A DNA stretch of 64,000 bases, from positions 118,829 through 182,828 of the forward strand of contig NZ_LIUQ01000001.1 in the NCBI RefSeq assembly GCF_001276715.1. Direction: 5' to 3'. This document shows, one piece after another, positions 9,094 through 39,530 of this stretch (the first letter of the stretch is position 1; every line of letters starts with the position of its first letter). The stretch is from Planktothricoides sp. SR001 (GTDB lineage Bacteria; Cyanobacteriota; Cyanobacteriia; Cyanobacteriales; Laspinemataceae). Both the position numbers and the translations under genes were made by a program. Below the pieces are notes generated by a model. That model ran no database searches, had not been told where the DNA came from, and was given only the letters and a program-made list of their open reading frames with translations.

Positions 9094-9616
9094 AGTCCAG
9101 CAACATTAGTAAAACTTAATCTAAAACATGAGATTTACTTATGTTTTTTCTATGTTGCATTGTTAAAAGTCTATGACTAGAGGCAGATTATAAAGTTTTA
9201 TGAAGCAAAAGACAATAAGTATTTACTAATACGAATGTTTAATTGCGGTAATATTTTTTGAATTATCCTCGATTGCTCCCCGATCGCCTTTAGTCTATTT
9301 CTGTTATATGGAGTAATTTACAGCTTTTTTTCAGAGGCATAGAGATATATAAACAATTTTATTGAATTATCATAAGAAAATCTAATTGTTTCTATTTGTC
9401 TCCATAAATAAGAGCGCATTTCTGATTTTGCGGGTGTCTCTGTACCATCTTGACTTTTCCTATCATAGAGATTAGCGATTTAGTCGGTCAAAAACTCGGT
9501 TTCTGACTCAAATTTTTATCGGTTGCCTAAAACTCCGTTGAGAAACCGGGTTTTTGTTTCTATTCACCTATTTTATGCGATCGCCCCCCGTCCCCCGACG
9601 AAAGCGGGGGCAGGTT
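9094..9616. other. Upstream region of ndhF3, no gene
   Basis: No coding frame is supported. The first 150 bases should contain the ndhF3 promoter. They are AT-rich with short dyads such as CATGAGATTTACTTATG at about 9128-9144, which could be part of a LysR-type operator (weak inference). Bases 9485-9560 hold AAACTCGGTTTC and GAAACCGGGTTTTT, a pair of the dispersed palindrome family. Confidence 0.5.
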
Positions 9617-10233
9617 CTAACCCCAAACCCGACGCAAATTAAACACAAAACCGGGGAATACTTCCTCACCGGATAACTCAGCCGGATTTGACAATATCTC
9701 TACTTCTAAACCCACTCGATAAACTTCCACAATTCTATTTTGCGGATCGATTAACCAACCCAGTCTAGCCCCATTCTCCATATACTCTTGCATTTTCTCT
9801 TGTAGCGACTTCAGAGTATCAGAAGCAGAACGCAATTACACCACAAAATCCGGGCAAATATTCGGAAATGCACCTCTTTGTTCATCCGTCAGTGCATCCC
9901 AACGTTCTTGACTAATCCATCCAACAAGCATCGGGAGAACGATTTGCCCCATTGGGTAAAATAAATCCCGTATTAAAACTCAAATGCTTCTCCCTGTTGA
10001 TAATCTTCATACCGGCGATGCAGTTGTCCGATGATGCTGAAATTACCTTTTCCAGTTTCCCAACCTGTTAGTGGATTCACAATTAACTCTGCTTTTGCGG
10101 TTCTCTCCAGTCGTAATTCTCGATTGCTGGCTGCTAGGGCTGTAAATTGTTCCTGGGTGACATAAAGTTTTAGGGTTCTGGGTAACTCAAGTAACAGCGT
10201 TTCGGTTTCCGGTTTTGTAAGTGTATGTACCAT
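9617..10233 (-). pseudogene. Uma2 family (DUF820) nuclease-fold protein, decayed
   Basis: The pieces read as one Uma2 protein. Residues 1-86 (from 10233) include LRLERTAKAELIVNPLTG and end GEAFEF. One extra T near 9973 shifts the frame into NTGFILPNGANRSPDACW. A second shift near 9915 leads to QERWDALTDEQRGAFP and CPDFVV, then an in-frame TAA at 9836-9838 interrupts before LRSASDTLKSLQEKMQEYM and the usual end PGFVFNLRRVWG. Uma2 proteins have a PD-(D/E)XK nuclease fold and are hugely expanded in cyanobacteria with unknown function. Three independent lesions make this a pseudogene, not a sequencing slip. Confidence 0.9.
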
Positions 10234-18958: not shown

Positions 18959-19840
18959 TTAAGGAATTTGTGGCGGAGCAAAATCTGGATTAATCAACTC
19001 TACAGGGGCTTGGGTTTGAGAATTTTGTTTCGGGGCTTCTTGTGTAGTCTGAGACACCAAAATATAACCTAAATAAGCCGGTAAAACCATCACCGTCATC
19101 GCCGCGATCGCCCCCACAAAATGAGTCCATTGATTAGAAGGGCCATAATAACACCGATAAGGGTCAAAAGAAAGCTGACTCCCATCAAATTGTTCGCGCA
19201 TGGCCACAGAACGCTTAAACCTTACTCGGCGATCATCCAGCTTTTCTAACAAAATCCAGCCCGCTTGGGCTTCTTCTTCACATAACTTAACAAACTCATT
19301 AGCATTGCCAAATAAATCATAATGAGCGCGAACAATTTTATATTCCCACTCAGTGGTGGAAGCATCGGTAAAATACATTGGCTTTTCTCTGATTTCAGCA
19401 TAATCAAAACCATTTACAACCGGCGGACACTGGCTCAGGATATCTGGTTCAAGATTAGCTAAATTTGTCGGCTCATAAATCACAGCAGTTTGCTCCTGCG
19501 GGAGGTCAGCTTTCTGGGGTTGAGTTTTTATAGCCGCCATATTTTTCCGGTTAGGTAAAGGCGTAGCTGGAGGGACAGGTTTAGGGGGGACGGTGGAACC
19601 TGGATGCGGAACGGCAGAACTGGCTAAACCATTCAAAGTCTGAGGCGATCGCCCCACCGTCCCCCCGGAAAAAGATTCTCCAGTCAACCGATCTTTAAAT
19701 TCATGGTTACTCAAAATTTCCTCCTCCTCTTCCTCCTCAGTGGTGACAACCGTTTGCTGCCAACGCAGCCATGCACTGACCAGCACGCCATCTATGCCTA
19801 ACGTACCCACAAATAGGCTCCAGATCAAAACTTCAAGCAT
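18959..19840 (-). CDS. Membrane protein with Pro-rich linker and DUF4177-like domain
   Basis: The 293-residue protein has a hydrophobic N-terminal segment (LIWSLFVGTLGIDGVLVSAWL), an EEEEEEE run, a Pro/Thr-rich linker (about residues 60-110), then WEYKIVRAHYDLF...LCEEEAQAGWILLEKLDDRRVRFKR (about 165-215), a DUF4177-like pattern. A second membrane helix lies near residues 240-262. Function is unknown. It is 42 bases downstream of ribD in the same direction and may share its transcript. Confidence 0.65.
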   Translation of the reverse strand: MLEVLIWSLFVGTLGIDGVLVSAWLRWQQTVVTTEEEEEEEILSNHEFKDRLTGESFSGGTVGRSPQTLNGLASSAVPHPGSTVPPKPVPPATPLPNRKNMAAIKTQPQKADLPQEQTAVIYEPTNLANLEPDILSQCPPVVNGFDYAEIREKPMYFTDASTTEWEYKIVRAHYDLFGNANEFVKLCEEEAQAGWILLEKLDDRRVRFKRSVAMREQFDGSQLSFDPYRCYYGPSNQWTHFVGAIAAMTVMVLPAYLGYILVSQTTQEAPKQNSQTQAPVELINPDFAPPQIP

Positions 19841-23557: not shown

Positions 23558-26500
23558 TTACTCTGACTCAAAAGATTGATGTTTAAATTTCAAAGTTAGG
23601 CAATTTTCTGTCACCGTTCTGACAATATTATCTGGTGCTCCTTCGGGGATATCCGCTGAAATTTCTAAGGTGATTTTTACTTCTGCCCCGGTTAAAGCTG
23701 TCAAATGTTGGATGATTTCATTAGCGATCGCACCTACATCTCGATTAATCCGCATCGGGTCGATTTCCACACTGCCATGAAATCGGCGGGGGGGTTGCTT
23801 TTCTGGCAACTTTATGCTATCATTATTAGCGTCGGTTTTTCCGCTAGTTTCTGATGTTTGATATGCCCCACCTTTTTCGGCAAACTTTGAAATACTGGGA
23901 CTATTAGATGCTTTTGCCGCTTGTGCCGCATCGATTTGTCTTTGGGCAACTTCCGGTTTCACAATCAGGCTATTTGGGCTAATACTAGGATTAATTCCTG
24001 TGCCAAATTGTAACCCGATATATTCGCCTTTGACCTCATCAAAACCTGTGGCAAAGGCAAAATGATCCGCCCAATTAATCGAGTTTACCCCATTTTGAAT
24101 ACATTCTAAAAGAACCGATCGATCCTTTAAGCGGGGTAAATATAAATAGCGGGTCAAATAGTCCCACAAGCTGCTTAGGTCAAGGCGATCGCGCCATAAT
24201 ATCTCATCTAACACTTCAAGCCGCAAAAGATTAGGGCCATAGGTCGTGAGTAAATTACTTTCATATTCGGCTTTTTTACTAGCAGTTTCCACCAGATAAC
24301 CTTGCACTTGCAAGCGGGTTTCTTTCCATTCAATCGGGGAGATAATAGAAGAGAGAGGAGAGAGACTATTTTCCGCTTTACTATCTTCTCCTTCCGCTTT
24401 ACTTTCCCCTCTTTCCTCTCCTCTCTTTCCTCTCTCCTCTTTTCTCTCCCCTCTTTCCTCTCTTCTCAACTCTTGCGTCGGCACCAGCAACCATTGATAA
24501 GTATCCAGCAGAATCACTCCTACATCTTTATCTGATTGCTCTTTTTTATTCATCGCCTGCTTTTCTTGGAAAGCATCTAGGTTTAAAATCTTCTTATCCT
24601 CAACGATCGCCTCCCAAGCCAGATATTGCGCCACATTCCGGGCTAAATTCTCAATTTTATTGCTATCGGCAGCTAAAAATAGCAGCGTATTCTTATAAAA
24701 CCGGGGGCTATTTCCTTTATGGTGTAAAGCGTCTTCCGCCCATTTTTGCCCCTTACTTTCTGGATTATTCCGACTATGGGGATATTGCGGCCCCAAAATC
24801 ACCAACCGCACCCCCAAATTGGCATCGTCCGCAATATCAGCGGTAGATTCTGGGGCTATTAATACCGCACTAAATTCACCTTTGGACTTATCTTTTTTCA
24901 GCCGTCTGACGATTTCTGCCTCAACCTTATAGCGTTCGTTTTCTTCTAATAATTGATTGGTCCGTTCGATCGCCGTTCGGTTCACATTCGGTTGTGTCGA
25001 AACCCAATAGCGATTACCATCTAAATAGATATAGGTCGCTTGGTCGCTTAACCGCCGCAACGCATCCCCAAACGCTGCCGGATTTTCTCCCGGTTGTACG
25101 CAACCTAACTTAATCCGACGGTCTTCTAAGCCGCGATTTGCCGCCCGCAACGTGGGGGCTGACCCCATATAAATTGTCCGCGTTACTCGACGACAAGCAG
25201 AATATCGGCCAAAGTTGGGATTTTGGCGATCGAGAGTTAAGGGCAAGGAATTTGGCCCATCTACATCTTTCTCAATTACCGGAATCCAGTTATCTTCTAA
25301 ATAGCGACTAAGTTGCGACTGCACTTGGACATCATCGATCGCTACATGGGCTGGCATAATCATTAAACTTTGATCATTGCGTTCCCACAGAGAATGAATC
25401 ACTTTCGCCATTAAACACAACACCCCGCGAGTCCGTTGGAACTTATCCAAACTCGACCAGTCCGAATAGAGGCGATCGAACAGTTCGGGATGAATAGGAT
25501 AAGCGGCTTTCATTCGCTGCTGATAATCCGGTTCCTTACATTCCGAGGGAAACTCCTGACTTTGGTTGCGGTACATTTCGGCAAAAGCCCGAACCACCAC
25601 ATCCCGTTTGGCAAATAAATTCGGGTCTGTATTGGTTTGAAATAGCCGCCGTCGGACAATCTCAAAACTCTCCTCACCCGTCGCGGGACGCCAAGGGGAC
25701 TCCACCCGCCCGATCGCATTCTTCAACCGTTCCAGGGCTTCCTTCCCCCGTTCTCCTCCCGTCTCAATATCATTGCTGCGAGTTTGACCCGTATGAGGGT
25801 CGGAAATATCAGAAGCGGGAATACTCACCACCAACAAAGTGCGATCGGCATTCTTCGCCGACTCACTCAAAGTTTGGGCAAAAGTAAATTGCGTCTCAAA
25901 ACTGCCCCCGGCAATATCACTCTGGTCATGCAACTGCCTCGCATAAGCCACCCACTCATCAATCAAAATCAAACAAGGGGCGAACCGATTAAACAGAACC
26001 TTCAACGCATCCCCAGGATTAGTCGAAGTTTCATCCGCCTTGCGAACCAACTCATAACCCTCCGCCCCACCCAACTGCCAAGCCAACTCACCCCAAAGCG
26101 TATTAATCACCGGGCGACTTTGACCCTCATGTTCTGGCTTATAACCAACAATCCCACTCGGCTGTAACTTATTCCCCACCAACACCGCCACATTCACATC
26201 TTGGGGCGGTTCCTGAAAACCCAAATCCTGAAAAATCGACTCCATCCCCGGCAAATCGGCAATTTTCAAAGCATTAGCCAAATGATAAAGGGCTAACATC
26301 GCGTGAGTTTTCCCACCGCCGAAATTCGTCTGCAAAGAAATCACCGGATCTCCACCCTGACCACTCAACCGCCGTAGGGCATTCGCCAAAAGTTGCTTTA
26401 ACCCTTCCGTCAAATAAGTCCGACCATAAAACTCCGTCGGGTCGCGATACTCATTACTCCCCTCATCCAAATACACCTGCCACAAATCTGCCGCAAACTC

Positions 26501-27073
26501 CGCCTGCTGGAACCGACCGGAAGCCACATCACGATGGGGCGTCACCACCTCACGCCAAGGACTCAAACCCCCTTGGGGCTGCCCCTCCGTCGGAATCACT
26601 GCTGCCCGTCGAGACCGATAACGGGCTTGTTCCTCAAACTGGACTCGCAACAACTCCTGCTTATGCCGTTCCACCTCCGCCACCGCTTGGGGGGCAGAAA
26701 CCGCCGACAACAACCGGGCAACACTATCCAAAGCCCGATAAGCATCATCACTAGAAAAAGTAGTCGTATGGGCCCACTCATTCCGAGTATCCCGTAACTC
26801 GCTAACAATACTCCGTTCGCTGCGCCCCAAAACACTCTTAAAAACATTACTCCACTGTTCCCACATCACAATCAACAAAGCGGAAACATCCTGACGCAAA
26901 ACCTCCTGAATATCCTGCTTTCGCCCCAAATAATTATCCGGTAAACAAGCGGCAGCCGCTGACAACCAACGACTGCCATAATGACTTCTCATCTCACGTT
27001 CCAAAAACGGATAAACACCTTCCTGGAGTAAAGCCAAAGCCTTAGTCACTCGGTCATAATTAGTAATAGCCAT
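23558..27073 (-). CDS. DUF499 family ATPase with N-terminal Swt1-type HEPN domain
   Basis: A 1171-residue protein. Residues about 1-125 form a HEPN-like helical domain with RNEWAH (R97-x4-H102), the RNase active-site pattern of HEPN domains. The ATPase has Walker A NFGGGKTH (about 250-257) and Walker B CLILIDEW (about 367-374), as in COG1483/DUF499 proteins that accompany DUF1156 methylases and SNF2 helicases in predicted defence systems. A Glu/Arg/Lys-rich linker (about residues 868-911) is encoded by a purine-rich low-complexity insertion (24342-24470) that keeps the frame. The C-terminal part (IDPMRINRDVGAIANEIIQHL onward) is the usual conserved tail. Last gene of the island, separated from the rest by three toxin-antitoxin pairs. 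Confidence 0.9.
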   Translation of the reverse strand: MAITNYDRVTKALALLQEGVYPFLEREMRSHYGSRWLSAAAACLPDNYLGRKQDIQEVLRQDVSALLIVMWEQWSNVFKSVLGRSERSIVSELRDTRNEWAHTTTFSSDDAYRALDSVARLLSAVSAPQAVAEVERHKQELLRVQFEEQARYRSRRAAVIPTEGQPQGGLSPWREVVTPHRDVASGRFQQAEFAADLWQVYLDEGSNEYRDPTEFYGRTYLTEGLKQLLANALRRLSGQGGDPVISLQTNFGGGKTHAMLALYHLANALKIADLPGMESIFQDLGFQEPPQDVNVAVLVGNKLQPSGIVGYKPEHEGQSRPVINTLWGELAWQLGGAEGYELVRKADETSTNPGDALKVLFNRFAPCLILIDEWVAYARQLHDQSDIAGGSFETQFTFAQTLSESAKNADRTLLVVSIPASDISDPHTGQTRSNDIETGGERGKEALERLKNAIGRVESPWRPATGEESFEIVRRRLFQTNTDPNLFAKRDVVVRAFAEMYRNQSQEFPSECKEPDYQQRMKAAYPIHPELFDRLYSDWSSLDKFQRTRGVLCLMAKVIHSLWERNDQSLMIMPAHVAIDDVQVQSQLSRYLEDNWIPVIEKDVDGPNSLPLTLDRQNPNFGRYSACRRVTRTIYMGSAPTLRAANRGLEDRRIKLGCVQPGENPAAFGDALRRLSDQATYIYLDGNRYWVSTQPNVNRTAIERTNQLLEENERYKVEAEIVRRLKKDKSKGEFSAVLIAPESTADIADDANLGVRLVILGPQYPHSRNNPESKGQKWAEDALHHKGNSPRFYKNTLLFLAADSNKIENLARNVAQYLAWEAIVEDKKILNLDAFQEKQAMNKKEQSDKDVGVILLDTYQWLLVPTQELRREERGERKEERGKRGEERGESKAEGEDSKAENSLSPLSSIISPIEWKETRLQVQGYLVETASKKAEYESNLLTTYGPNLLRLEVLDEILWRDRLDLSSLWDYLTRYLYLPRLKDRSVLLECIQNGVNSINWADHFAFATGFDEVKGEYIGLQFGTGINPSISPNSLIVKPEVAQRQIDAAQAAKASNSPSISKFAEKGGAYQTSETSGKTDANNDSIKLPEKQPPRRFHGSVEIDPMRINRDVGAIANEIIQHLTALTGAEVKITLEISADIPEGAPDNIVRTVTENCLTLKFKHQSFESE

Positions 27074-27098: not shown

Positions 27099-27238
27099 TT
27101 CTTCGTGTTCTTCGTGTCTCTGTGGTGGAAGTTTAAACCACGAAGGCACAAAGGACACAAAGGGTTTTTTCTTCGTGTTCTTTGTGTCTTTGTGGTTTTA
27201 TATTTATTTTACCACAAAGGCACAAAGGACACAAAGGT
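27099..27238. repeat. Palindromic CACAAAG element array 1 (two palindromes)
   Basis: Half-units alternate: TTCGTGTTCTTCGTGTC..., CCACGAAGGCACAAAGG..., CTTCGTGTTCTTTGTG..., CCACAAAGGCACAAAGG.... Two linkers occur, GGAAGTTTAAA and TTTTATATTTATTTTA. The array fills the gap between the DUF499 gene start and the end of the first PIN toxin gene. Confidence 0.95.
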
Positions 27239-27244
27239 TAAAAG

Positions 27245-27661
27245 TTAATCAGGACGACGAATCAAGCCCATTTGCGAAAAATGGCGGTCGAAAGTAAATG
27301 CTTCAGTAATTCCAGATTCTTTCATCACTACATAAGAGGTACAGTCGGTAAAAGACCATTGCTTATCTCTATTGAATTGCTCGAATATTTGCCAAGTTTT
27401 TCGGTTAATTTCTGGGGAAATCCAGACAATTTGTAATAGGTTATGAGCAATGAGTATATCCAGCTTGGCTTTAAATTTTACCGTTGGGTCGTACCCAACA
27501 TTCATCAGCAACAAAGTATAAAGCTCATCTAAAATATAATTGCTAGTCACGAGAATAATTCCCTTAACTTGACGATTAAATTCTACCGCTTTGATATGAT
27601 TATCATCATTTTTGTCAGCTAGGGCAGCAAAAGCACTTGTATCTACAAATATTTTTTTCAT
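27245..27661 (-). CDS. PIN-domain toxin (VapC-type), pair 1
   Basis: The 138-residue protein is a PIN domain: KKIFVDTSAFAAL with the first catalytic Asp, LDELYTLL with the Glu, and WSFTDCTSYVVM plus AFTFDRHF carrying the further acidic residues. PIN toxins of this kind are Mg-dependent RNases cutting tRNA or rRNA. The antitoxin gene lies 8 bases upstream. The stop is 7 bases outside the flanking palindromic array. All active-site acids are present, so the toxin looks intact. Confidence 0.9.
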   Translation of the reverse strand: MKKIFVDTSAFAALADKNDDNHIKAVEFNRQVKGIILVTSNYILDELYTLLLMNVGYDPTVKFKAKLDILIAHNLLQIVWISPEINRKTWQIFEQFNRDKQWSFTDCTSYVVMKESGITEAFTFDRHFSQMGLIRRPD

Positions 27662-27669
27662 TAATTTTT

Positions 27670-27897
27670 TTATTGCTCCTGAGAATAGAGATATTTATCA
27701 TGGTAGATAGAAGTATTTTCTAACCGCCCTGCCACGGCATCATCCCCTAGCGATCGCCAAACTTCCCAGGCATCTTCATTAATAGAGTTTGTGTCAGATT
27801 CTACCATGCGATTAAGTTGGTCGATCAGCATTTTTCGTTCGGCTTGGGGTAATGCCTGAATCACTTGAATAATCGAATCAACTAACTGAGTATTCAT
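27670..27897 (-). CDS. Antitoxin of PIN pair 1
   Basis: A 75-residue acidic protein (MNTQLVDSIIQVIQALPQ at the start, then KMLIDQLNRM) with helical N-terminus and a C-terminal tail SLGDDAVAGRLENTSIYHD. Position directly ahead of a PIN toxin gene identifies it as the antitoxin; the LPQAERKMLID pattern is common in cyanobacterial PIN antitoxins of unnamed type. The array starts 32 bases upstream of its ATG, so its promoter lies in or near the repeat. Confidence 0.78.
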   Translation of the reverse strand: MNTQLVDSIIQVIQALPQAERKMLIDQLNRMVESDTNSINEDAWEVWRSLGDDAVAGRLENTSIYHDKYLYSQEQ

Positions 27898-27928
27898 ATT
27901 TTATCCTTTAGTAATTTATTTAATTTAT

Positions 27929-28220
27929 TCGTGTTCTTTGTGTCTTTGTGGTTTTATATTTATTTTACCACGAAGGCACAAAGGACACAAAGGGTTTTTT
28001 GTTCGTGTTCTTTGTGTCTTTGTGGTGGAAGTTTGAACCACGAAGACACAAAGGACACAAAGGGGTTTTTTCTTCGTGTTCTTTGTGTCTTTGTGGTTTT
28101 ATATTTATTTTACCACGAAGGCACAAAGGTCACAAAGGGTTTTTTCTTCGTGTTCTTTGTGTCTTTGTGGTTTTATATTTATTTTACCACGAAGGCACAA
28201 AGGTCACAAAGGATATGGCG
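27929..28220. repeat. Palindromic CACAAAG element array 2 (four palindromes)
   Basis: Eight half-units alternate in orientation over about 290 bases, with linkers TTTTATATTTATTTTA (three) and GGAAGTTTGAA (one) on one side and GTTTTTTC-like linkers on the other. The last half-unit overlaps the end of the second PIN toxin gene and supplies its stop codon. Frames read through this array (repeating LCLCGF and HEGTKDTKG) are artefacts. Confidence 0.96.
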
Positions 28221-28620
28221 TCCAAAAATCCAGATTTTTGAAAGTGCCAAAATCCCGAAAGTTATATGTCCAAACTGGGCTATGGTAGCGCAATGCTATA
28301 AATACAACTGTGGCATCTTCTAAAGAACCTTGCCATTGAGGTAATTGAGTCACCATTGCTTGTATTTGTTCAAAGTCATTTTGATCTAAGGCTACTGGGT
28401 GTAAACTTTCTTGCATAACTTTGAGGGTATTTTGAGCGATCGCTGGATAAGTCCGCTGTAGTAACCATTTGTAAACCTCAAAAATAATGGGAATGGGGGT
28501 GAGTAGAATTGTTTTTTGTTTAGCCAATTGTTGAAATCCATTAACACATTGTTCGTGGTAAGTATCTTTGGCATAAAATAGACCAATCAGAGGGCCAGCA
28601 TCCAACACAAGCTGTTTCAA
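28204..28620 (-). CDS. PIN-domain toxin (VapC-type), pair 2
   Basis: A 138-residue PIN domain: KQLVLDAGPLIGLF with the first Asp, IIFEVYKWLL with the Glu, and LEDATVVFIAL plus VWTYNFRDFG with the downstream Asp residues. It probably acts as an RNase restrained by the antitoxin, whose gene overlaps by 4 bases (ATGA). The last residues (Pro-Leu) and the TGA stop come from the adjacent palindromic element, so the native C-terminus may have been replaced. Confidence 0.9.
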   Translation of the reverse strand: MKQLVLDAGPLIGLFYAKDTYHEQCVNGFQQLAKQKTILLTPIPIIFEVYKWLLQRTYPAIAQNTLKVMQESLHPVALDQNDFEQIQAMVTQLPQWQGSLEDATVVFIALRYHSPVWTYNFRDFGTFKNLDFWTPYPL

Positions 28621-28832
28621 TTTTCAAAGTCCTCCGCATGGTCTGCTGCCCCCCGTGGGGCTTCGGTGACAATGCCCGCAAGTTCTAAAAGTTTTGAACT
28701 ATCTTTTGGAGTTAGCTTAATTTGTAAAGCTTCATCAATTAATCGGGCTAAACTATCTTGGGGATTTGCTTCGAGATAAGCATTCAATTGTTCAGCTAAT
28801 TTATCTGGTAATTCTATGGTAATTTGAGTCAT
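28617..28832 (-). CDS. Ribbon-helix-helix-like antitoxin of PIN pair 2
   Basis: A 71-residue protein beginning TQITIELPDKLAEQLNAYL, a pattern fitting an RHH/CopG-type DNA-binding strand-helix-helix, followed by an acidic C-terminal tail (GAADHAEDFEN) suited to binding the toxin. It overlaps the toxin gene by 4 bases, the usual translational coupling. The repeat array starts 24 bases upstream. Confidence 0.82.
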   Translation of the reverse strand: MTQITIELPDKLAEQLNAYLEANPQDSLARLIDEALQIKLTPKDSSKLLELAGIVTEAPRGAADHAEDFEN

Positions 28833-28855
28833 ATTTTTTTACCTATTAGGAATTT

Positions 28856-29067
28856 CTTCGTGTTCTTTGTGTCTTTGTGGTTTTATATTTATTTTACCAC
28901 GAAGGCACAAAGGACACAAAGGGTTTTTTCTTCGTGTTCTTTGTGTCTTTGTGGTTTTATATTTATTTTACCACGAAGACACAAAGGACACAAAGGGTTT
29001 TTTCTTCGTGTTCTTTGTGTCTTTGTGGTTTTATATTTTATCACCACGAAGGCACAAAGGTCACGGA
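28856..29067. repeat. Palindromic CACAAAG element array 3 (three palindromes)
   Basis: Six half-units with TTTTATATTTATTTTA linkers and GGGTTTTTTC joints. The last half-unit is variant (CACAAAGGTCACGGAGG) and contains the stop codon of the third PIN toxin gene. Confidence 0.96.
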
Positions 29068-29459
29068 GGAGTAAGTAATTGGAGATTAGGAATGTCTAGA
29101 AAATCTTTTACATTATGGGTGACAAGGGGTAAGTTATGACGCAAAGCAGTAGCGGCAATCCAAGCATCTTGAGGCGAAATTGGCCGTCCAATACTTTGTC
29201 GATCGCCCCGAACTTTTGCCCATTGCCGACAAAGAGGTAGATCCGTTGGAATCACCAAGTAATTTAATAGATATTCCTCTAATTGTGCGAGACGCCGATC
29301 GCCCCAATGATGCAGAATTGCCCATTGAAATAGTTCGGCAACTGTCATAAATGAAAGGGCTAACTGATGACCGGGCAAAAGCGGTAGATAAGGGTCAGCG
29401 TAATTACTACCCTTGAAAATAAAAGAAGTAATATCAGTATCGATTAGTATCACACCCAT
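29061..29459 (-). CDS. PIN-domain toxin (VapC-type), pair 3
   Basis: A 132-residue PIN domain closer to the FitB/VapC type: VILIDTDITSFIF with Asp pair, MTVAELFQW with Glu, and ISPQDAWIAATAL plus LVTHNVKDF with the remaining acids. The antitoxin gene is separated by one base. The last two prolines and the TGA stop fall in the flanking repeat. Confidence 0.9.
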   Translation of the reverse strand: MGVILIDTDITSFIFKGSNYADPYLPLLPGHQLALSFMTVAELFQWAILHHWGDRRLAQLEEYLLNYLVIPTDLPLCRQWAKVRGDRQSIGRPISPQDAWIAATALRHNLPLVTHNVKDFLDIPNLQLLTPP

Positions 29460-29460
29460 T

Positions 29461-29754
29461 TTAACTTAAATCACTGCTTAATGTTCCTTGACGTTGTTCT
29501 CTCATAAAAGTTAAAAAATCATCAATAGACTCTTCTTCTGGCCAAAAATATGCCCGGAGTTCTTGGGGCTGATTTACTGTTATTGGTTTTTGAGATTCTA
29601 TTAACTCATGCAAAGCAACTCCTTGCCAAAAGCGATCGCTAAGTTTTTCGAGATTGGGTTGTTGGCTTTCCAGCAACATTTGCAAAATTTGTTGCCGTTC
29701 TTGGGGAGATAACTTTTCAATAGCCGCGATCGCGGCTTCAATTTCTGGACTCAT
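29461..29754 (-). CDS. Antitoxin of PIN pair 3
   Basis: The 97-residue protein starts at MSPEIEAAIAAIEKLSPQ; a longer frame upstream only reads through the palindromic repeat. The N-terminal helix pair (residues 2-32) and a W-P-E-E-E acidic segment near the C-terminus fit an antitoxin. Its stop and the toxin ATG are one base apart. The family is not named with confidence. Confidence 0.8.
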   Translation of the reverse strand: MSPEIEAAIAAIEKLSPQERQQILQMLLESQQPNLEKLSDRFWQGVALHELIESQKPITVNQPQELRAYFWPEEESIDDFLTFMREQRQGTLSSDLS

Positions 29755-29786
29755 AATAGATGTATTTATTTTACGAATAGGACTTT

Positions 29787-30077
29787 CTTCGTGTTCTTTG
29801 TGTCTTTGTGGTTTTATATTTATTTTACCACGAAGGCACAAAGGACACAAAGGGTTTTTTATTCGTGTTCTTTGTGTCTTTGTGGTTTTATATTTATTTT
29901 ACCACGAAGGCACAAAGGACACAAAGGGGGTTTTTTATTCGTGTTCTTTGTGTCTTTGTGGTTTTATATTTATTTTACCACGAAGGCACAAAGGACACAA
30001 AGGGTTTTTCCTTCGTGTTCTTTGTGTCTTTGTGGTTTTATATTTATTTTACCACGAAGGCACAAAGGTCACAAAGG
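29787..30077. repeat. Palindromic CACAAAG element array 4 (four palindromes)
   Basis: Eight half-units with nearly identical TTTTATATTTATTTTA linkers; the joints differ slightly (GTTTTTTATT, GGGTTTTTTATT, GTTTTTCC). The methylase stop codon TAA abuts the last unit at 30078-30080. Confidence 0.96.
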
Positions 30078-32966
30078 TTACAATAAACCAAGTTGTTCGG
30101 GGGAAGATTTCTGGTGATGGGATAAGCGCTGGATTTCCGGCCAAGCGATGACTAAACTATTATAGGCTAGGGCTTCGTTTGTCCAGCCTTTTCTGTCGCA
30201 TAGGTTATAGAGGCGATAGGCTAAGTCGCGGGCAATTTCTGCTTTATCTCCGAGTTGGGATAAGAGTTCGGCGGTGGCTATTTCTCCCTGTTTATCTAAG
30301 GTGTGAATTAGCTGTTGGGTGATTTCCCAGTCCGGCATTCGTCCATCAGTTTTTGGGTTCCAATCCGGTTCTAATTCCTGGCGTTGTAAGAGGCGGACTT
30401 TACCCGCTTTGGCTTCGAGAATACCGGCGGCAACTAAGCCTTGAATGCTGGTATTTTTGGCTTTGGAAAGAGTTTCCGCATCCCCATATAGTCCTTCATT
30501 AAATTGATTTTGTTCAAACCAAGTTAATGCCCAGCGAGTGTCCGCGTCAAATTCCCCTTCTTGTTCGGTGAGGAATTGATCGAGGAGTTGGTTGATTAGT
30601 TGCAGGGCGGTTCGGACTGGCAAGGCAGTGCCGTCATTTTCTAGAATAGCGGCATATTTAGAATAGATGGCCATGCCAGGGCCAATACTCGCTTGGGCGA
30701 GGTCAACCGGGGCAATGTTGCCTTGTTGTAAGGTTTTTAGGGCTTTGGGGAGTTCTCGCTGCATTTCACTGAGGAATTGGCGGCGGGAAATTTTCGGGGC
30801 ATTCTTTGGTCGGGGGCGACAGACTAGGACAATTGAAGAAGCCAGGGCATTTGAACCTTGTCCTCTCATACGGTTACTTAATTCGGTTCTTAATGGCCAT
30901 GTTCCGTTAATGCTAAAATTAGCCTGCATTAACCCTTCGAGAATTGTTTCCCAACCCGTTGAAGCCACATTATCATCATCGTCTGTTTCTGTTTGTTTCA
31001 GCGCATAATAAACTGTGAACGGATAATCTTGATGATTGATTTGATTGACTCGATTGAAAACCTTAATTAAGCTATTCTCAAAAAATTGTTTGGCTTTGGC
31101 TTGGCTACCATGCCGAAATTTATCCGCCACCATCTCTTGAGACTTTGGTACTAATAAAGTGCTGCAAATATTAGGATAAATTGAACCCAGAGATTCCCGC
31201 AGCCAAGTATAGAAAAAATCCGATAAGTCAGCATAAGGCACCGCATCATAATATGGTGGATCTGTAGAGATTAATTTGGGAATTTCGTCGTTTTTATGGC
31301 AGGCTGTGGCGTCGTGTTGGCTGACTATTCCAAAAATGAAACCAGTAGAATTTTCAATAACTTTTATAATCCAATCAATTGCCCCGCTAAAATTTCCTGT
31401 TGAATCACTCATAGGATTAGCTTCTGCAAAATCCCAAGTCATAGGAATTGCTTGTCTTGCAAAAGTGTTGCGAACTTTCATATATCCTATATCCCAACCG
31501 CAAACAGTAGAACATCTATCAGCTAATCTATCAATTCCAAAAGCCAAATAAACTGCTACAGCCTCCCCATAAGCCCTTGCCCCAGTACCGCCGTCGCTTA
31601 ACGGCACATTATCATCCGGTAAACCGGCAGAAATCGCATCTTGAATCGCCCGATCTTTCGCCTCACTCACCAAATCACTAAACGTTGTCAGGGCAACTAA
31701 TTGACGATTTGTAAAAATATCTCCATATTTTGTCAGTCCATAAATAGGGGGAGAAAACCATCGAGGATTATCACAAATTTCCTCTTCCGGTTTCCATGTT
31801 GGTTTAGCGGAAAAAGCAACCTTTTCCTGTTCCGCAGTGGGCGACAAATAAATCCGACCCTTATCTCCCTCAGCAACTATAGCCATCAACTGCTGACCCA
31901 TGCGTCCAGCCATTCCCTCAGCCTTAATATATTTATCAGTTGTAGGTTGTTTACAAGATAAACACTTAAAATTTGCGCCTCGTCCTGTTTTGGGAGAATC
32001 CGGCGCCTTTCCTTCCCCGGTCTTCACCGTAAACCGAACCTTCGTGTCCTTCGTGTCTTTGTGGTTCTCAACCTCCACCCAAGCCTCTTTACCCTTCTTC
32101 GTCGAAAGTTCAAAACTCCTCACCAAAGGCATTTCACACCCACAAGCGGGGTTGGGACATCTCACCGTCCGGGCCCACAACCAAGCAATTACCGTTAATT
32201 TTTTTTCTTCTTCACCACAAAGACACAAAGAACACGAAGGATATAAATCCCCAATCTTTTCTAACGCCTTTTCCCGCATCCAACCACCATAAAATCGCAC
32301 ATCAGCCGCTAAACCCTGTGCCCCTTTCCAAGACTCTAAGTTACTCCGCTTCCGATCTTCCCCATTCACCGGCGGCAAATTCTTAAATTTCGGCGGAATT
32401 TCAATTAATGCTTTATTGATCAATACCGCTACCGGGTTTAAATCACTGGCATGGGACTCTAGCCCTAACCGTTGGGCTTCCAAGGGAATAGACCCACCCC
32501 CGGCAAACGGGTCATAAGCTGGTGGCGCATATTTGGCAATATATTCTCGGACAGCCTCCGGTTTCGCGGGCGGTTCCTCTCCCCGTTCCCACGCCAAACA
32601 CCGGGCTATTTCTGCTTGGGCTTGATGAATAATCTTCTCGTCTTTAATATCATCCCAAGATACTAGCCCGCGTACTGTCTCTTTTTTGTTCCCTTTCTTA
32701 TCAGTCTCTATTTCAATTCGCCCTAAAATATCAAATAGTCTCTCCCGTTCTTTGTTCTGTTCTTCTTCTGTAGGGAATTTATCAGGCCAACTGCTGGGGT
32801 CATCCACAAGAGAAGCCCATAACACGGCCCGACAAGCCGCTAAAGGTCGCCGTGCCCACCATAAATGTAACGTTGAGGGGTGGCCATGACGGATGGACTT
32901 TTCCCGGGCTGATTCCACGTTGATGGCTTCCAGGGGGAGGGATACTTCGATGAGTTTTTTACGCAT
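30078..32966 (-). CDS. DUF1156 adenine-specific DNA methylase with Zn ribbon
   Basis: I start at MRKKLIEVSLPLEAIN (32966), because residues further upstream are encoded by a repeat half-unit. The 962-residue protein opens with the DUF1156 block (ESAREKSIRHGHPSTLHLWW, about residues 19-38). SAM motif I is DPFAGGGSIPLEA (about 152-164), the catalytic motif IV is DPPYYDAVPYADL (about 567-579), and CPNPACGC plus CLSC (about 270 and 333) form the Zn ribbon of COG1743. It should methylate adenine in DNA, marking self in a restriction-like system. Two repeat half-units lie in frame around the Zn ribbon (32040-32072 and 32214-32242) and add CSLCLCG and NHKDTKDTK. Key motifs are intact. Confidence 0.92.
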   Translation of the reverse strand: MRKKLIEVSLPLEAINVESAREKSIRHGHPSTLHLWWARRPLAACRAVLWASLVDDPSSWPDKFPTEEEQNKERERLFDILGRIEIETDKKGNKKETVRGLVSWDDIKDEKIIHQAQAEIARCLAWERGEEPPAKPEAVREYIAKYAPPAYDPFAGGGSIPLEAQRLGLESHASDLNPVAVLINKALIEIPPKFKNLPPVNGEDRKRSNLESWKGAQGLAADVRFYGGWMREKALEKIGDLYPSCSLCLCGEEEKKLTVIAWLWARTVRCPNPACGCEMPLVRSFELSTKKGKEAWVEVENHKDTKDTKVRFTVKTGEGKAPDSPKTGRGANFKCLSCKQPTTDKYIKAEGMAGRMGQQLMAIVAEGDKGRIYLSPTAEQEKVAFSAKPTWKPEEEICDNPRWFSPPIYGLTKYGDIFTNRQLVALTTFSDLVSEAKDRAIQDAISAGLPDDNVPLSDGGTGARAYGEAVAVYLAFGIDRLADRCSTVCGWDIGYMKVRNTFARQAIPMTWDFAEANPMSDSTGNFSGAIDWIIKVIENSTGFIFGIVSQHDATACHKNDEIPKLISTDPPYYDAVPYADLSDFFYTWLRESLGSIYPNICSTLLVPKSQEMVADKFRHGSQAKAKQFFENSLIKVFNRVNQINHQDYPFTVYYALKQTETDDDDNVASTGWETILEGLMQANFSINGTWPLRTELSNRMRGQGSNALASSIVLVCRPRPKNAPKISRRQFLSEMQRELPKALKTLQQGNIAPVDLAQASIGPGMAIYSKYAAILENDGTALPVRTALQLINQLLDQFLTEQEGEFDADTRWALTWFEQNQFNEGLYGDAETLSKAKNTSIQGLVAAGILEAKAGKVRLLQRQELEPDWNPKTDGRMPDWEITQQLIHTLDKQGEIATAELLSQLGDKAEIARDLAYRLYNLCDRKGWTNEALAYNSLVIAWPEIQRLSHHQKSSPEQLGLL
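32040..32242. repeat. Two in-frame CACAAAG half-units inside the methylase gene
   Basis: Half-units CTTCGTGTCCTTCGTGTC... (32040-32066) and CCACAAAGACACAAAGAACACG... (32215-32240) face each other across about 145 bases of coding sequence that encodes the first Zn-ribbon knuckle. Both keep the reading frame. Confidence 0.9.
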
Positions 32967-33004: not shown

Positions 33005-33388
33005 TTAACCGTTAAGTAGGCGTTTGATGCCGTTTCTGAGAACAGGGACGTTGAAATTAATCAGTAAACCTAGCCAACGTTGCTTTAATCTAAGATAAGT
33101 GAGTAGTTGGGCGGTATGGATAGGTTGTAAACTTTCTACGGTTTTAATTTCAATAATGACTAAGTTCTCTACAAATAAGTCTAAACGATAACCGCAATCC
33201 AGTCGTATTCCTTTATAAGTCACTGGCTGGAAAACCTCGCGTTCTACATATACCCCTCGCTGTTTTAGTTCATACTCTAAACAGTCTCGATACGCGGACT
33301 CTAGTAACCCAGGACCTAATTCTCGATGGACTTCAATGGCTGCCCCAATAATTATATTCGATAATTCATTAGCCCTTTCTCTACTCAT
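33005..33388 (-). CDS. GxxExxY protein (PD-(D/E)XK nuclease-like)
   Basis: Start is [11 protein letters not shown] at 33388; the frame upstream lies in a repeat. The 127-residue protein has the family signature [20 protein letters not shown] followed by [19 protein letters not shown], where D...E-x-K form a nuclease-like core, and ends [16 protein letters not shown]. GxxExxY proteins are widespread; their function is unproven, though the fold belongs to the PD-(D/E)XK superfamily. Its position between the methylase and helicase genes, bracketed by repeats, makes a role as the nuclease of the system possible, but it could also be a passenger. Confidence 0.88.
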
Positions 33389-33389
33389 C

Positions 33390-33537
33390 CTTCGTGTCCT
33401 TTGTGTCTTTGTGGTTTTATATTTTATCACCACGAAGGCACAAAGTTCACAAAGGGGGATTTCCTTCGTGTCCTTTGTGTCTTTGTGGTTTTATATCTAT
33501 TTTATTTTACCACAAAGGCACAAAGTTCACAAAGGGT
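33390..33537. repeat. Palindromic CACAAAG element array 5 (two palindromes)
   Basis: Four half-units between the GxxExxY start codon (one base away) and the helicase end. The helicase stop codon TGA (33527-33529) is inside the last half-unit. Confidence 0.95.
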
Positions 33538-35770
33538 TTTTTCCTCGGTTCCATAAGTCTGCCCAGTTATAGTTTACGCTATTAACCCCAAAGTCCGGTT
33601 CTTTTTGAAATGGTTGGCAAATATAGCGGATTTCTGGATCGGTTTCTGGGGATATTTTTACTAGGGCTAGGATATATTGTTCCGGTTGGTTTAAGGCGGT
33701 GATGATTTCGTTTTTGGTGATGGTGACATTGGTGGCCCCGGCTATTCTGCCTTTGACTTCGATGAATGTTAGTCTGCTAGTTTGGGGATTTAAGGATTCG
33801 ATGTCATAGCCCCGGTTTTCCCCGCTAATGTCTTGGGGTTGATGGTCTAGTTTTTGTTCGGCGTTAATTACTGCGTTTATGGCGGCTATTTCTATTTGTT
33901 TTTTGTCTAGGCTATTGCTGATATTTTCTCTTTCAAGAAGTTGGTTTAATCGTCCCTGGGAAATTACTAATGCCCCCCCGACTACTACCGGCGGGCTGGC
34001 GATGATTTGCTTTTCTTGTTCTAATTCTATTAGGCGTTTTTCCAGTCTGGCGGCTAATTCATCAGCCCGTTGCTGGGCTTTAGCCGAGTTTATTTTAGCG
34101 TTAACTTTTCCCGCTTGTTCCTGTTGCTTGAGTTCCGCTGCCCGCCAGTCCCAATAGTTGATTTCTTTGGTCAGCCGGTCTTTGACGGCATAAGTTATTT
34201 TATCCAGCAATTCTTTTTTATGTTGATATACTTCCTGGCGATGTTGGTTGACTAAGTATTGAATGGCATAGTTTTTGGCTTTGGTTTCAATGGTTTGGGA
34301 TGTATTTTCACCACAAAGACACAAAGGACACAAAGGAATTTCTTGTGGGGTGATGGGTCGATAGTCTAAGTAAGGGGCATATCCGGCGTTTCTGCCTTCG
34401 TGTTCTTTGTGTCTTTGTGGTTCATTTTCCCCTGCTAAGGGAATTTCTACATATTGCATCCGTTTGGAGATGATTTGTCCCCGTCCGTCTTTGATGGAAT
34501 GTTCGAGATAAATTAAGGCGAAAGTTTCTGATTCTGGGTTGTTTTCATCGATTAAAATAGTTCCTTGGCGGAGGAGTTGGCGGTGTCTTTCTAGGATTAG
34601 GTCTAGGGTGGCGTCTAATAGTGGGTGTCCGGGGCAGATGAATTCCGCGAGGGGTTTGCCCGGAATGCTGATGAGTGATTTGTCAAAGCAAATGCGTTCG
34701 TAGGACCGCAAGATGGGATTTTTTCGCCCAATTAGGCGATCGCGGTTGCGGATAGTAGCGGGGACATGGGTGATTTCATAGCGTTTTGGTTCCCGTTGGC
34801 GAATAGTTCCCCCCAGGTGTTGAAAGGCTTCTAAGAAGAAGGTGGCGATAAAATAAGGTTGGAGTTTGCGGGCTTCGGCCCGTTCCATGTTCTGCCGAAT
34901 GCGTTGGACTTTGCTGGCATCCATTGAGTCTCGGGCTAAGGCCCGTTCTTCTAATAAGTCTTGGAGGCGGTTCTGATCTAGGCGATCGCTGAGTACCTGA
35001 TTGAGTTTGGCTTTCACGTCGGGGCGATCGCCATAGCGAATAGCCTCAATTAACAATTCCCGCAACTCCTGACCGGCGATCGCCTTACCGAGGACATCAA
35101 AGACTTTTCCCCCTAGGGCTTTTTGTTCTATTTCTAACTTTTTCAATAGAGAAAGATAAACATCACCTTCGCGAGTTTCCCCTGCGACCAAATTCCATAA
35201 ATGACAAACCTCGGTTTGCCCAATGCGGTGAATTCGCCCAAACCGCTGTTCTAACCGATTGGGGTTCCAGGGCAAATCATAATTCACCATCAAATGTGCC
35301 CGCTGTAAATTAATCCCTTCCCCCGCAGCGTCCGTAGCAATTAACACCTCAACCCTAACATCCTGCTTAAAAGCTTCCTCAGCTTTCTTCCGTTCTTCGC
35401 GACCCATTCCCCCATGAATTGTCACCACCGCTTCGGGACGACCGAGTAAAGTAGTAATCCGATGATAAAGATAATTTAAAGTATCCCGGTGTTCGGTAAA
35501 AATCACCAACTTTTTAGCATAACCACAAAGACACAAAGACCACAAAGGGTGTTCTTCTTTGTGTTCTTCGTGTCTTTGTGGTGAGAAAATCATCGAAATC
35601 ACCCGCGATAATTCCTCCCATTTGCGATCGCGACCACTCCTTCTAACCCGGAGGGCTAAATTTTCTAATTCTTTGAGGCGATCGATTTCCGCTTGTAATT
35701 CAGCGATCGTTCTTGCGGCAGTAGCTTGGTCTACTAATTCTTCTTCTGCGGCTTCTTGTTCTGCGGAAGA
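33527..35770 (-). CDS. SNF2-type helicase, C-terminal part (second RecA lobe plus DUF3883-like domain), after an in-frame stop
   Basis: The frame is open from 35770, directly after an in-frame TGA at 35771-35773, and continues the upstream helicase gene without a shift. The first Met is at 35602. Before it the frame reads EQEAAEEELVDQATAARTIAELQ, clearly native coil sequence. Helicase lobe 2 follows: KLVIFTEHRDTL, VTIHGGMGREERKK, DAAGEGINLQ and RFGRIHRIGQTEV (arginine finger). The C-terminus, GYDIESLN...LTFIEVKGRI, is a DUF3883-like nuclease-related domain. In-frame repeat insertions lie at about 35521-35582 and 34310-34424. The last three residues NPL and the stop come from a repeat. Without readthrough this part would need its own start and lack ATPase lobe 1. 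Confidence 0.85.
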   Translation of the reverse strand, partial: SSAEQEAAEEELVDQATAARTIAELQAEIDRLKELENLALRVRRSGRDRKWEELSRVISMIFSPQRHEEHKEEHPLWSLCLCGYAKKLVIFTEHRDTLNYLYHRITTLLGRPEAVVTIHGGMGREERKKAEEAFKQDVRVEVLIATDAAGEGINLQRAHLMVNYDLPWNPNRLEQRFGRIHRIGQTEVCHLWNLVAGETREGDVYLSLLKKLEIEQKALGGKVFDVLGKAIAGQELRELLIEAIRYGDRPDVKAKLNQVLSDRLDQNRLQDLLEERALARDSMDASKVQRIRQNMERAEARKLQPYFIATFFLEAFQHLGGTIRQREPKRYEITHVPATIRNRDRLIGRKNPILRSYERICFDKSLISIPGKPLAEFICPGHPLLDATLDLILERHRQLLRQGTILIDENNPESETFALIYLEHSIKDGRGQIISKRMQYVEIPLAGENEPQRHKEHEGRNAGYAPYLDYRPITPQEIPLCPLCLCGENTSQTIETKAKNYAIQYLVNQHRQEVYQHKKELLDKITYAVKDRLTKEINYWDWRAAELKQQEQAGKVNAKINSAKAQQRADELAARLEKRLIELEQEKQIIASPPVVVGGALVISQGRLNQLLERENISNSLDKKQIEIAAINAVINAEQKLDHQPQDISGENRGYDIESLNPQTSRLTFIEVKGRIAGATNVTITKNEIITALNQPEQYILALVKISPETDPEIRYICQPFQKEPDFGVNSVNYNWADLWNRGKNPL
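34310..34424. repeat. In-frame CACAAAG half-units inside the helicase gene (site 2)
   Basis: CCACAAAGACACAAAGGACAC... (34310-34337) and CCTTCGTGTTCTTTGTGTC... (34398-34423) flank about 60 bases encoding RNAGYAPYLDYRPITPQE. The frame is kept; the repeats encode EPQRHKEHEG and CPLCLCGE-type residues. Confidence 0.9.
35521..35582. repeat. In-frame palindromic CACAAAG element inside the helicase gene (site 1)
   Basis: A whole palindrome, CCACAAAGACACAAAGACC... then GTGTTC then TTCTTTGTGTTCTTCGTG...GTGG, is inserted between the inter-lobe coil and the KLVIFTEH motif. It adds about 21 codons (PQRHEEHKEEHPLWSLCLCG) without breaking the frame. It defines the mobile unit as CCAC...GTGG with the short loop. 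Confidence 0.92.
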
Positions 35771-37051
35771 TCAGTCTTCTAAGTATTCTTCCCAATCTTC
35801 AGGAACATCAATTTCTTCTCCCCGTTTTAGCAATTCTTCTTCGCGGAGTCGGGTTTGTAAGCGTTCTTTCCGTCGGGAGATAGACTGATAAATCGCTTCC
35901 GGGGAAGAAGCGAGGCGTCGTTGCAGAATAGTCAAGGCAAAACCTACGGTCCCTCGGCGTTTTTTGGCTAAATTATCTGCCCGGTTAAATTCTTCTCGTA
36001 CATAGTCGGTGACTTGTTTATAAAGATGGGCTTCTAAGTCAGATAAATTATATTGAACTGTATGGGCTAACCGTTCGGGAAATAGGGGTTTGGCGTCAAA
36101 TTTCAATAAGTCTTCTTTAACTAAACGTCGCATTAAGTCGGAGGTATCGCAAGCATGAACCCCATCCCGAAATTTGCCTTCAAAGCGATCGCCGTCTAAG
36201 AGGGCTAAAAATAGCTGAAAGTCTTCTTCTTTGCCATTGTGGGGAGTAGCGGTCATTAGGAGAAAGTGACGGGTCAGGGTAGAAAGAAGTTTGCCCAATT
36301 TATAGCGTTTAGTTTCCCGAATATCGCCGCCAAAAAAGGAAGCGGACATTTTATGGGCTTCATCGACTACGACTAAATCCCAGTCGGTTTGTTTCAGCTT
36401 TATCTGCAAATCTTGGCTGCGACTGAGTTGGTCTAAACGGGCGATCGCCAGGGGAATTTCCGCCAAAGGATTACCAGTCCGCGAGGTTTCAATTTTCTCT
36501 TTAGTTAAAATCTCAAAAGGCAGATGAAATTTCTGGTCTAACTCATCTTGCCATTGGACGGCCAAACTGCCCGGACAAACAATTAAACACCGCTGTAAAT
36601 CCCCGCGAATTAATAACTCGCGAATAAATAAACCGGCCATAATAGTTTTCCCTGCCCCTGGGTCATCGGCTAACAAAAACCGCAAGGGCTGTCGGTTCAA
36701 CATTTCCCCATAGACAGCGATAATTTGGTGGGGCAATGGTTCCACCAAAGAGGTATGAACTGCCAATAAAGGGTCGAAAAGATGGCCTAAATTAATCCGG
36801 TGGGCTTCAGAAACTAGGCGAAATAATGCCCCATCCCCATCAAAACTCCAAGGTTGCCCTGCGGTGACAATTTCTAAATCCGCTTCACTATCTCTAAATA
36901 ATAATTGTGTATGGGGTTGTCCCTGGATATCTTTGTAGGTTAACTCTACTACATCATTCCCATGCCATTCGGCATTAATCACCGTGACATTTTGATTGGG
37001 GATAATGCCTTTGATGATGGTTTTTGGGGTGAGGTCTTCAAGTTTTGCCAT
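35771..37051 (-). CDS. SNF2-type helicase, N-terminal part (DEAH ATPase lobe), ends at a premature stop
   Basis: The 426-residue piece carries lobe 1 of a SNF2/HepA-type (COG0553) helicase: Walker A DDPGAGKT (about 129-136), DEAH box VVVDEAHKM (about 227-235) and motif III TATPHNG. It stops at TGA (35771-35773) in the acidic inter-lobe linker EDWEEYLED, and the same frame goes on for another 747 codons with clear helicase sequence. A single base change would explain it. Together the pieces have the length and order of the helicase partner of DUF1156/DUF499 systems. It is the first gene of the island. The gene is probably inactive unless the stop is read through or is a sequencing error. Confidence 0.9.
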
Positions 37052-38473: not shown

Positions 38474-38530
38474 ACAACCACAGGGTTAGTATTGCCCACC
38501 CTGTCCCGGAGAGAATCGCCCATAAAATTT

Positions 38531-38608
38531 AGTGAAACAAATTACTGAAACAAATTACTGAAACAAATTACTGAAACAAATTACTGAAACAAATTACTGA
38601 AACAAATT
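38531..38608. repeat. Six tandem copies of a 13-base unit overlapping a gene end
   Basis: AGTGAAACAAATT followed by five exact ACTGAAACAAATT units. The last unit encodes, on the minus strand, the final Asn-Leu-Phe-Gln and the TAA stop of the DUF4168 gene. Confidence 0.95.
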
Positions 38609-39103
38609 CGGGGTTTGTAAACGCAGCAATTCCGCAGTAATTCGCTCTAGGATTCTCGTGTCCTGGGTTAATAAATTAGTAATCTGGTTAAATCGCTGAA
38701 TGGTTAAGCTATTGTTTTCTACAATTGCAATCGATTTTTGGCAGTAGTCGATCGCCGATTCGCGAATTTCTCTTGGCAGCCTATTCACACTATCTTGATC
38801 GCTGCAAATAATCTGGGGCATTTCTTCCCTACCTGTGAACCGCTGTTTAATCTGATTATAATATTCTTGCCGCAATGGTTCAATGGCCAAAAGCGATCGC
38901 GCATAATTCGTAATTTCCGCTGCGGACAAACTTGGAGCCGATTGTTGTGCCAAAGCCGCCGAATTAAAGTCTAAAATAGCCGCAGATTTGAGGGAAATAC
39001 TGGGAGTTAGACCAGTGAAACAACTCATGGTGGACAATATCGCCGCCAGGAGCGATCTAGATAACCATTTAGAAGTCAATGGGGAAAAGTTAGAAGTTAA
39101 CAT
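38594..39103 (-). CDS. Secreted DUF4168 family protein
   Basis: Start taken at MLTSNFSPLTSKWLSRS (39103), which gives a basic n-region and hydrophobic helix (LLAAILSTMSCFTGLTP) typical of a signal peptide; the earlier Met at 39145 adds hydrophobic filler. The 169-residue product has the DUF4168 pattern: SAAEITNYARSLLAIEP, IDYCQKSIAIVENNSLTIQRFNQIT and RILERITAELLRLQTP. The protein is predicted periplasmic and helical with unknown function. Its last four residues and stop derive from a 13-base tandem repeat. Confidence 0.8.
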   Translation of the reverse strand: MLTSNFSPLTSKWLSRSLLAAILSTMSCFTGLTPSISLKSAAILDFNSAALAQQSAPSLSAAEITNYARSLLAIEPLRQEYYNQIKQRFTGREEMPQIICSDQDSVNRLPREIRESAIDYCQKSIAIVENNSLTIQRFNQITNLLTQDTRILERITAELLRLQTPNLFQ

Positions 39104-39530
39104 AATCAAATTAAACCAACAAAACAGGGTATGTGAAAAGTACAACAGTCATTAACAAGGTCAAGCTTTAAGATTTCGTTCCCTGGTGTTATGATTGCTA
39201 TTTAGTGTGCTTATAGCGGTTATTGTGCGAATTACAGAGGTTTTCTGGATTCCCGCTGGCGCGGGAATGACAGTTTTTTTGTACTTCATAACTCTGAGAA
39301 TTGTTATATCCCAGAATTGGTTAAAAAAACCGCTGAACAGATAGACACTTAAGCATTCTAGTTATCTTGAGCAATGTTGTTGTCGTTACTTAGTTCAAAC
39401 ATCAGAAAATTCAATGGCCAGAATCAATGATCGGAATCAATGGTCTTTGACCGCTCTTATGGTGTTTGATTTATTTTAAAACCTGGAAGTTCCAATTAAC
39501 CCTAAACTTAATTAAATCTTATCAAATAAA
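39104..39530. other. Intergenic region with an AGCGGTTATT inverted-repeat element
   Basis: TATAGCGGTTATT (about 39212-39224) and GGTTAAAAAAACCGCTG (about 39319-39335) frame about 125 bases that include a GATTCCCGCTGGCGCGGGAATGA hairpin. The left part (AGCGGTTATT...GATTACAGAGGTTTT...TTTTTTTGTACTT) is closely repeated at 50160-50237. No gene is supported. Confidence 0.65.

Follow-up and report, generated by a model that had tools for sequence, protein, structure and literature searches.

A probable recent nonsense change in the helicase gene of a Planktothricoides sp. SR001 Hma (Type-1 BREX-related) locus that is otherwise complete

In the parts of the two papers on which we draw, Hma is named as a candidate defence system (PMC8565338) and described as a Type-1 DUF499-centred BREX-related system, for which a model is proposed that combines self-methylation with a scanning role of the DUF499 ATPase and an attacking role of the helicase-nuclease (PMC12839542). 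The same parts of the latter paper cite an experimental study as confirming a role of HmaA and suggest nearby nucleases as stand-ins (PMC12839542).

The window analysed here, a stretch of 64,000 nucleotides, is part of contig C42. The draft genome comprises 165 contigs and 7.07 Mb, and its quality scores (99.46% complete, 0.01% contaminated) have little bearing on single bases. HmaA, HmaB and HmaC were the best profiles of its helicase, methyltransferase and DUF499 ATPase genes, so that the three core genes are present (Table 1), and PF06634, PF18731 and PF04465 scored above their cut-offs, marking a DUF1156 methyltransferase and a HEPN domain fused to DUF499. With the systems described in PMC8565338 and PMC12839542, as far as those accounts were drawn on, the locus shares a helicase with a C-terminal nuclease-like domain, a DUF1156 methyltransferase and a HEPN-fused DUF499 ATPase at full profile strength; it differs from them in that hmaA is cut by one TGA and in that hmaB is parted from hmaC by two PIN-domain genes, a similar-sized ORF without a Pfam match and repeat arrays, with small ORFs alongside. 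The initial annotation held the rest of the system to be intact, which is true of the reading frames of hmaB and hmaC: both are uninterrupted with full profile matches, and they align over residues 3-963 with L036 and over residues 1-1171 with L039, respectively. The HEPN domain of HmaC is still encoded. By homology this is an Hma locus, although as predicted from the sequence it lacks a full translatable set of three since hmaA carries the TGA. The closest named HmaA homologs, among the best 80 of 581 relatives, are cyanobacterial and belong to Leptolyngbyaceae and Roseofilum. The GxxExxY gene between hmaA and hmaB occurs in equal gene order in L030, L033, L041 and L045 and, by analogy with the stand-ins suggested in the part of PMC12839542 used here, its PD-(D/E)XK-family product could be a putative stand-in nuclease.

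Table 1. Features of the hma locus, in positions of the window
Feature	Positions	Strand	Remarks
hmaA, whole frame	37051-33527	-	1174 codons and final stop, plus one inner stop
hmaA, part before the stop, helicase lobe 1	35774-37051	-	426 aa; HmaA profile 1-422/1176; Pfam SNF2-rel_dom, ResIII, DEAD
hmaA, in-frame TGA	35771-35773	-	codon 427; variable inter-lobe linker
hmaA, part after the stop	33527-35770	-	747 open codons; lobe 2 (Helicase_C) and C-terminal NOV_C
Palindromic repeat inside hmaA, in frame, just before lobe 2	35522-35582		26-nt arms 35522-35547 and 35557-35582
Two repeat arms inside hmaA, in frame	34310-34422		residues about 880-920; flanking native conserved peptide
GxxExxY protein, PD-(D/E)XK family (PDDEXK_3), between hmaA and hmaB	33005-33433	-	Pfam
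hmaB, DUF1156 adenine methyltransferase, frame intact	30078-32966	-	HmaB profiles, 1234 and 1214 bits
Small palindromic repeats in frame inside hmaB	32043-32066, 32213-32240
hmaC, HEPN_Swt1 and DUF499 ATPase, frame intact	23558-27073	-	HmaC profile, 1040 bits

A single in-frame TGA had been proposed to split the helicase gene, and the letters bear this out: tca at 35771-35773 of the plus strand is TGA on the minus strand, within the codon run that had been given correctly (coding strand GAA GAA TAC TTA GAA GAC TGA TCT TCC GCA GAA CAA GAA GCC). Upstream of the TGA the frame has 460 open codons, 426 of them counted from the ATG at 37051, and downstream it has 747, as claimed, with Helicase_C matched in this second part. 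The absence of a frameshift was likewise confirmed, the protein with X at the stop aligning in a single tblastn piece, almost end to end, in 74 homologous loci. One PADLOC profile, HmaA, was matched by both sides of the TGA, the listed ORF after the stop covering positions 510-1171 of 1176. Three further stops of the window (19883, 7210 and 52398) also stand between same-frame stretches of at least 150 codons; the next listed ORF begins 24 to 42 bases downstream of each, and the pairs around them are separate genes by Pfam, except for 18959-19840, which has no Pfam match. That the hmaA TGA is a mere meeting of two genes is ruled out, both parts belonging to one HmaA profile and aligning in one piece.

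The site was compared across 86 homologous loci (L010-L015 and L029-L108), 80 of them from a scan of genome contigs and six from genomes of the same family or order. The scan retained the best 80 of 581 confirmed relatives, a sample in which closer-than-average relatives are over-represented; L016 (a duplicate of L038) and L017-L028 (partial or remote) stand outside the set. Residues 405-450 are spanned in one piece by 85 of the 86 loci, and all 85 carry a sense codon at the TGA site, while in the 86th, L037, the frame changes just upstream of it. Other lesions occur within the set: L061 has a stop at residue 563, L037 a stop at 346 together with its frame changes, L015 and L089 show frame changes, and L088 ends at residue 500 inside a 13-kb locus; six more matches that end at contig or locus ends were left out of this count. 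In a second sample, an intact HmaA from Roseofilum served as the query against 386 cyanobacterial genomes, yielding 39 with matches at an E of 1e-100 or better, and stops inside the match were found in two of these, the window (one TGA) and G360 (one TAA). The match reaches 50% identity or more in 24 genomes, and four of these carry a lesion: the genome of the window itself (G000), G360 (the TAA and frame changes; probably the same organism as L037), G103, where the match stops at residue 671 in a one-contig genome with no more pieces within 1.5 kb, and G198, with a frame change near residue 57 followed by the contig end. G030, whose match is cut by a contig end, was kept outside the lesion count, and the two samples overlap (G125/L034, G288/L031, G097/L095, G244/L043 and G360/L037). 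The lesions of G360, G103 and G198 likewise affect the helicase gene, at other sites and of other kinds than the TGA of the window. Broken hmaA is thus not rare in cyanobacteria, and a stop at the TGA site was seen in the window alone. The one other genome of the genus that was searched (G001) has no close hmaA, its best match being 41% over 130 aa, and viral contigs searched for the same sequence with another codon gave 0 matches. As separate observations, the hmaA copy of Laspinema palackyanum D2a (L038 / G010), with an open frame of 1504 codons, holds extra DNA at L038 8655-9580, and hmaA of L040 holds extra DNA at 8676-8920 and 9576-9751; in both copies the flanking matches are in equal frame.

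Relaxed evolution or decay after the stop was sought in branch ratios and in invariant columns, and none was seen. In separate trees of the two parts, the terminal branch of the window measures 0.159 before the stop and 0.218 after it, a ratio of 1.37; across 80 sequences (seven of 87 rows, L032, L050, L054, L075, L079, L083 and L088, having been dropped for coverage) the median after/before ratio is 1.84 (quartiles 1.43 and 2.53), and in ascending order the window comes 16th. Where 19 cyanobacterial relatives show no variation, the window departs from them at 4 of 201 columns before the stop and at 9 of 268 after it, within the range of the relatives' own leave-one-out departures (0 to 5.2% before, 0 to 6.0% after). 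Third-position G+C is 0.41 before the stop and 0.44 after. Normal branch ratios and invariant columns downstream imply one of three things: normal constraint on this part that lasted until recently, normal constraint that persists, or a stop that is not real.

In our view the TGA probably arose recently as a nonsense change in hmaA, the Hma locus being complete in other respects, and we infer the base to be real. Alternatively, the draft assembly could have one wrong base here, the gene being intact in the organism. A draft of 165 contigs leaves room for this, and a lone substitution-type lesion among 1174 codons, followed by no downstream decay, suits an error as well as a recent change; against an error, the window has no second TGA that parts two frames of 150 codons or more. 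We regard an error as unlikely, yet as a reading to be taken seriously. Either a recent loss-of-function change or a base error would be ordinary and would not surprise a specialist.

If the change is real, translation would end after residue 426, in a linker that follows the long helix after lobe 1 and varies in length and letters among relatives. An AlphaFold2 model with Trp at the stop was of moderate quality (mean pLDDT 69.9, pTM 0.46); residues 410-433, 492-510, 875-884 and 915-917, which correspond to the stop and the in-frame repeats, have a pLDDT below 50, as do some conserved helicase segments. The C-terminal region matched by NOV_C holds the motif GYDIES...FIEVKGR, and this domain probably corresponds to the C-terminal PD-(D/E)XK nuclease of the Hma helicase. 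SF2 helicases require both lobes. The truncated product would keep lobe 1 and neither lobe 2 nor NOV_C, and loss of the effector is expected because such a helicase needs both lobes; the attacking arm of the system would be lost, and with it presumably the defence. The methyltransferase and the HEPN-ATPase could still be made, leaving self DNA modified without restriction, a state expected to be tolerated. Under the Type-1 BREX-related model, as set out in the part of PMC12839542 used here, HmaA lost with HmaB kept would amount to restriction off and modification on. The suggestion in the initial annotation that a methylase left active without the restriction arm would be harmless to the host appears reasonable, by analogy, for a system resembling restriction-modification.

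Full-length or complementary product could in principle be made by other routes. Downstream of the stop, 56 codons pass without an ATG, GTG or TTG, and codon 57 is the GTG at 35602. A GGAGG lies 11 nt before it, so some downstream product is possible, which counts against the nonsense reading as stated above. HmaA could then consist of two polypeptides, one running through lobe 1 to the TGA and the other, with lobe 2 and the nuclease part, starting from GTG 35602 or ATG 35593; besides the GGAGG, the position of the break within the inter-lobe linker and the continuing constraint on the downstream part would suit such a division. The GGAGG, however, falls within the codons of the conserved KWEEL peptide and is explained by chance, residues 428-482 would fall in neither part, and 0 of the 85 spanning homologs have a stop at the site. 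The lost residues include the stretch between the stop and GTG 35602, in which 11 columns, from E431 to W478, are invariant in 32 aligned sequences. We judge a two-part HmaA highly improbable.

Reading through the UGA, by selenocysteine, a suppressor tRNA or a leaky stop, would give some full-length helicase, and the frame after the stop is indeed open and conserved. The genome speaks against it: among 48 tRNA loci none has a UCA anticodon and one is a tRNA-Trp with CCA, and a search for SelB gave a best match of 184 bits, below the cut-off of 242, in a 410-codon frame. The RNA fold around the TGA is no notable hairpin relative to shuffled sequences (z -0.17), and an Rfam scan of the window at gathering scores gave 0 matches. 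The residue aligned with the TGA is never cysteine in 19 relatives: nine have Ser, four Ala, three Leu, two Tyr and one Ile, and the column adjoins gaps. A selenoprotein was accordingly rejected, with SelB below the cut-off, no UCA tRNA, no hairpin after the UGA and no Cys in the homologs, and readthrough of any kind seems less probable even than two polypeptides.

The stop could also be one position of a reversible switch. A tandem repeat with a 15-bp unit in 1.9 copies adjoins it (35738-35766), and palindromic repeat arms occur elsewhere in hmaA. Since 15 bp are five codons, slippage keeps the frame and the TGA stays; the lesion is moreover a codon change and no frameshift. We found no frame-shifting repeat or invertible segment able to change the stop, invertible segments being judged from the listed repeat pairs near it, which give no exchange of the stop. 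A phase-off state is the least probable of the explanations considered here. The initial annotation had offered four readings, of which the recent nonsense change and the sequencing error stand as the two best and the readthrough site and the phase-off state find no support. Returning to the nonsense change, it presumably leaves the full protein no other route.

The repeats read in frame inside hmaA and hmaB are more curious than the TGA itself. The arms, about 26 nt long, occur many times across 27.1-37.3 kb of the window and also in other parts of the genome; between hmaB and hmaC (27109-30067), tandem arrays of these same palindromic arms surround the two PIN-domain genes and the similar-sized ORF. 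Arm matches in the genome number at least 92 on both strands, a count based on 40 of 124 first-look candidates that were scored. In 28 fetched genome stretches, picked by likeness to the hmaA copy and thus no census, and in the window, 54 clusters were counted, one of them twice (L177 overlaps the window). Of the 54, four fall within frames that are at least 180 codons long, with a margin of 30 codons, and each of these four is in hmaA or hmaB; in the 28 other stretches the arms are not inside long frames. When five repeat copies were translated in six frames, the stops that appeared sat where the copy meets the flanking bases.

The copy before lobe 2 was sought at the equal position in 19 aligned relatives and was not seen. 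Peptides resembling the pair at residues about 880-920 stand at the corresponding position of L031, L033, L036, L041 and L045, and a DNA motif test for the pair was positive in L033, L036 and L041. Some in-frame repeat positions are common to different cyanobacterial genera. In L041 and L045, repeat peptides (EPQRH... then ...LCLRGE) occupy hmaA residues about 405-425, in the linker that bears the TGA in the window; a repeat-insertion scar at the TGA was rejected, the window linker being without a remnant of the peptide that these two linkers carry. Other, unlike insert peptides were seen in the hmaA linkers of L030 and L034 and in the hmaB linkers of L034 and L040; hma linkers would thus seem to tolerate dispersed repeats of more than one kind. 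In the part of PMC3733652 used here, Rickettsia palindromic elements are short palindromes read in frame inside genes that are still open, as in hmaA and hmaB, a likeness of description. A narrow search of the literature on Hma and on repeats returned, in the portions of the texts it reached, no treatment of such repeats inside hma genes. Elsewhere in the window, at about 38530-38607, a head-to-tail run of a 13-nt unit (ACTGAAACAAATT) was seen by eye at the end of the ORF 38594-39145.

With these repeats in mind, HmaA might be made as two interacting halves or through low-level UGA readthrough, keeping a defence nuclease at low dose, and the inter-lobe linker, filled with repeats in two relatives, might be a place of cutting or tuning; we think this very unlikely.

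Should the TGA be a base error, it would be a caution on single bases in drafts. It is to be noted that both halves of hmaA match the HmaA profile strongly, and a caller accepting partial matches could count the locus as complete. If the stop is real, as is probable, the locus would be one more case in which a defence effector is lost while the methylase is kept, and it would help to establish how many of the predicted defence systems are actually dead.
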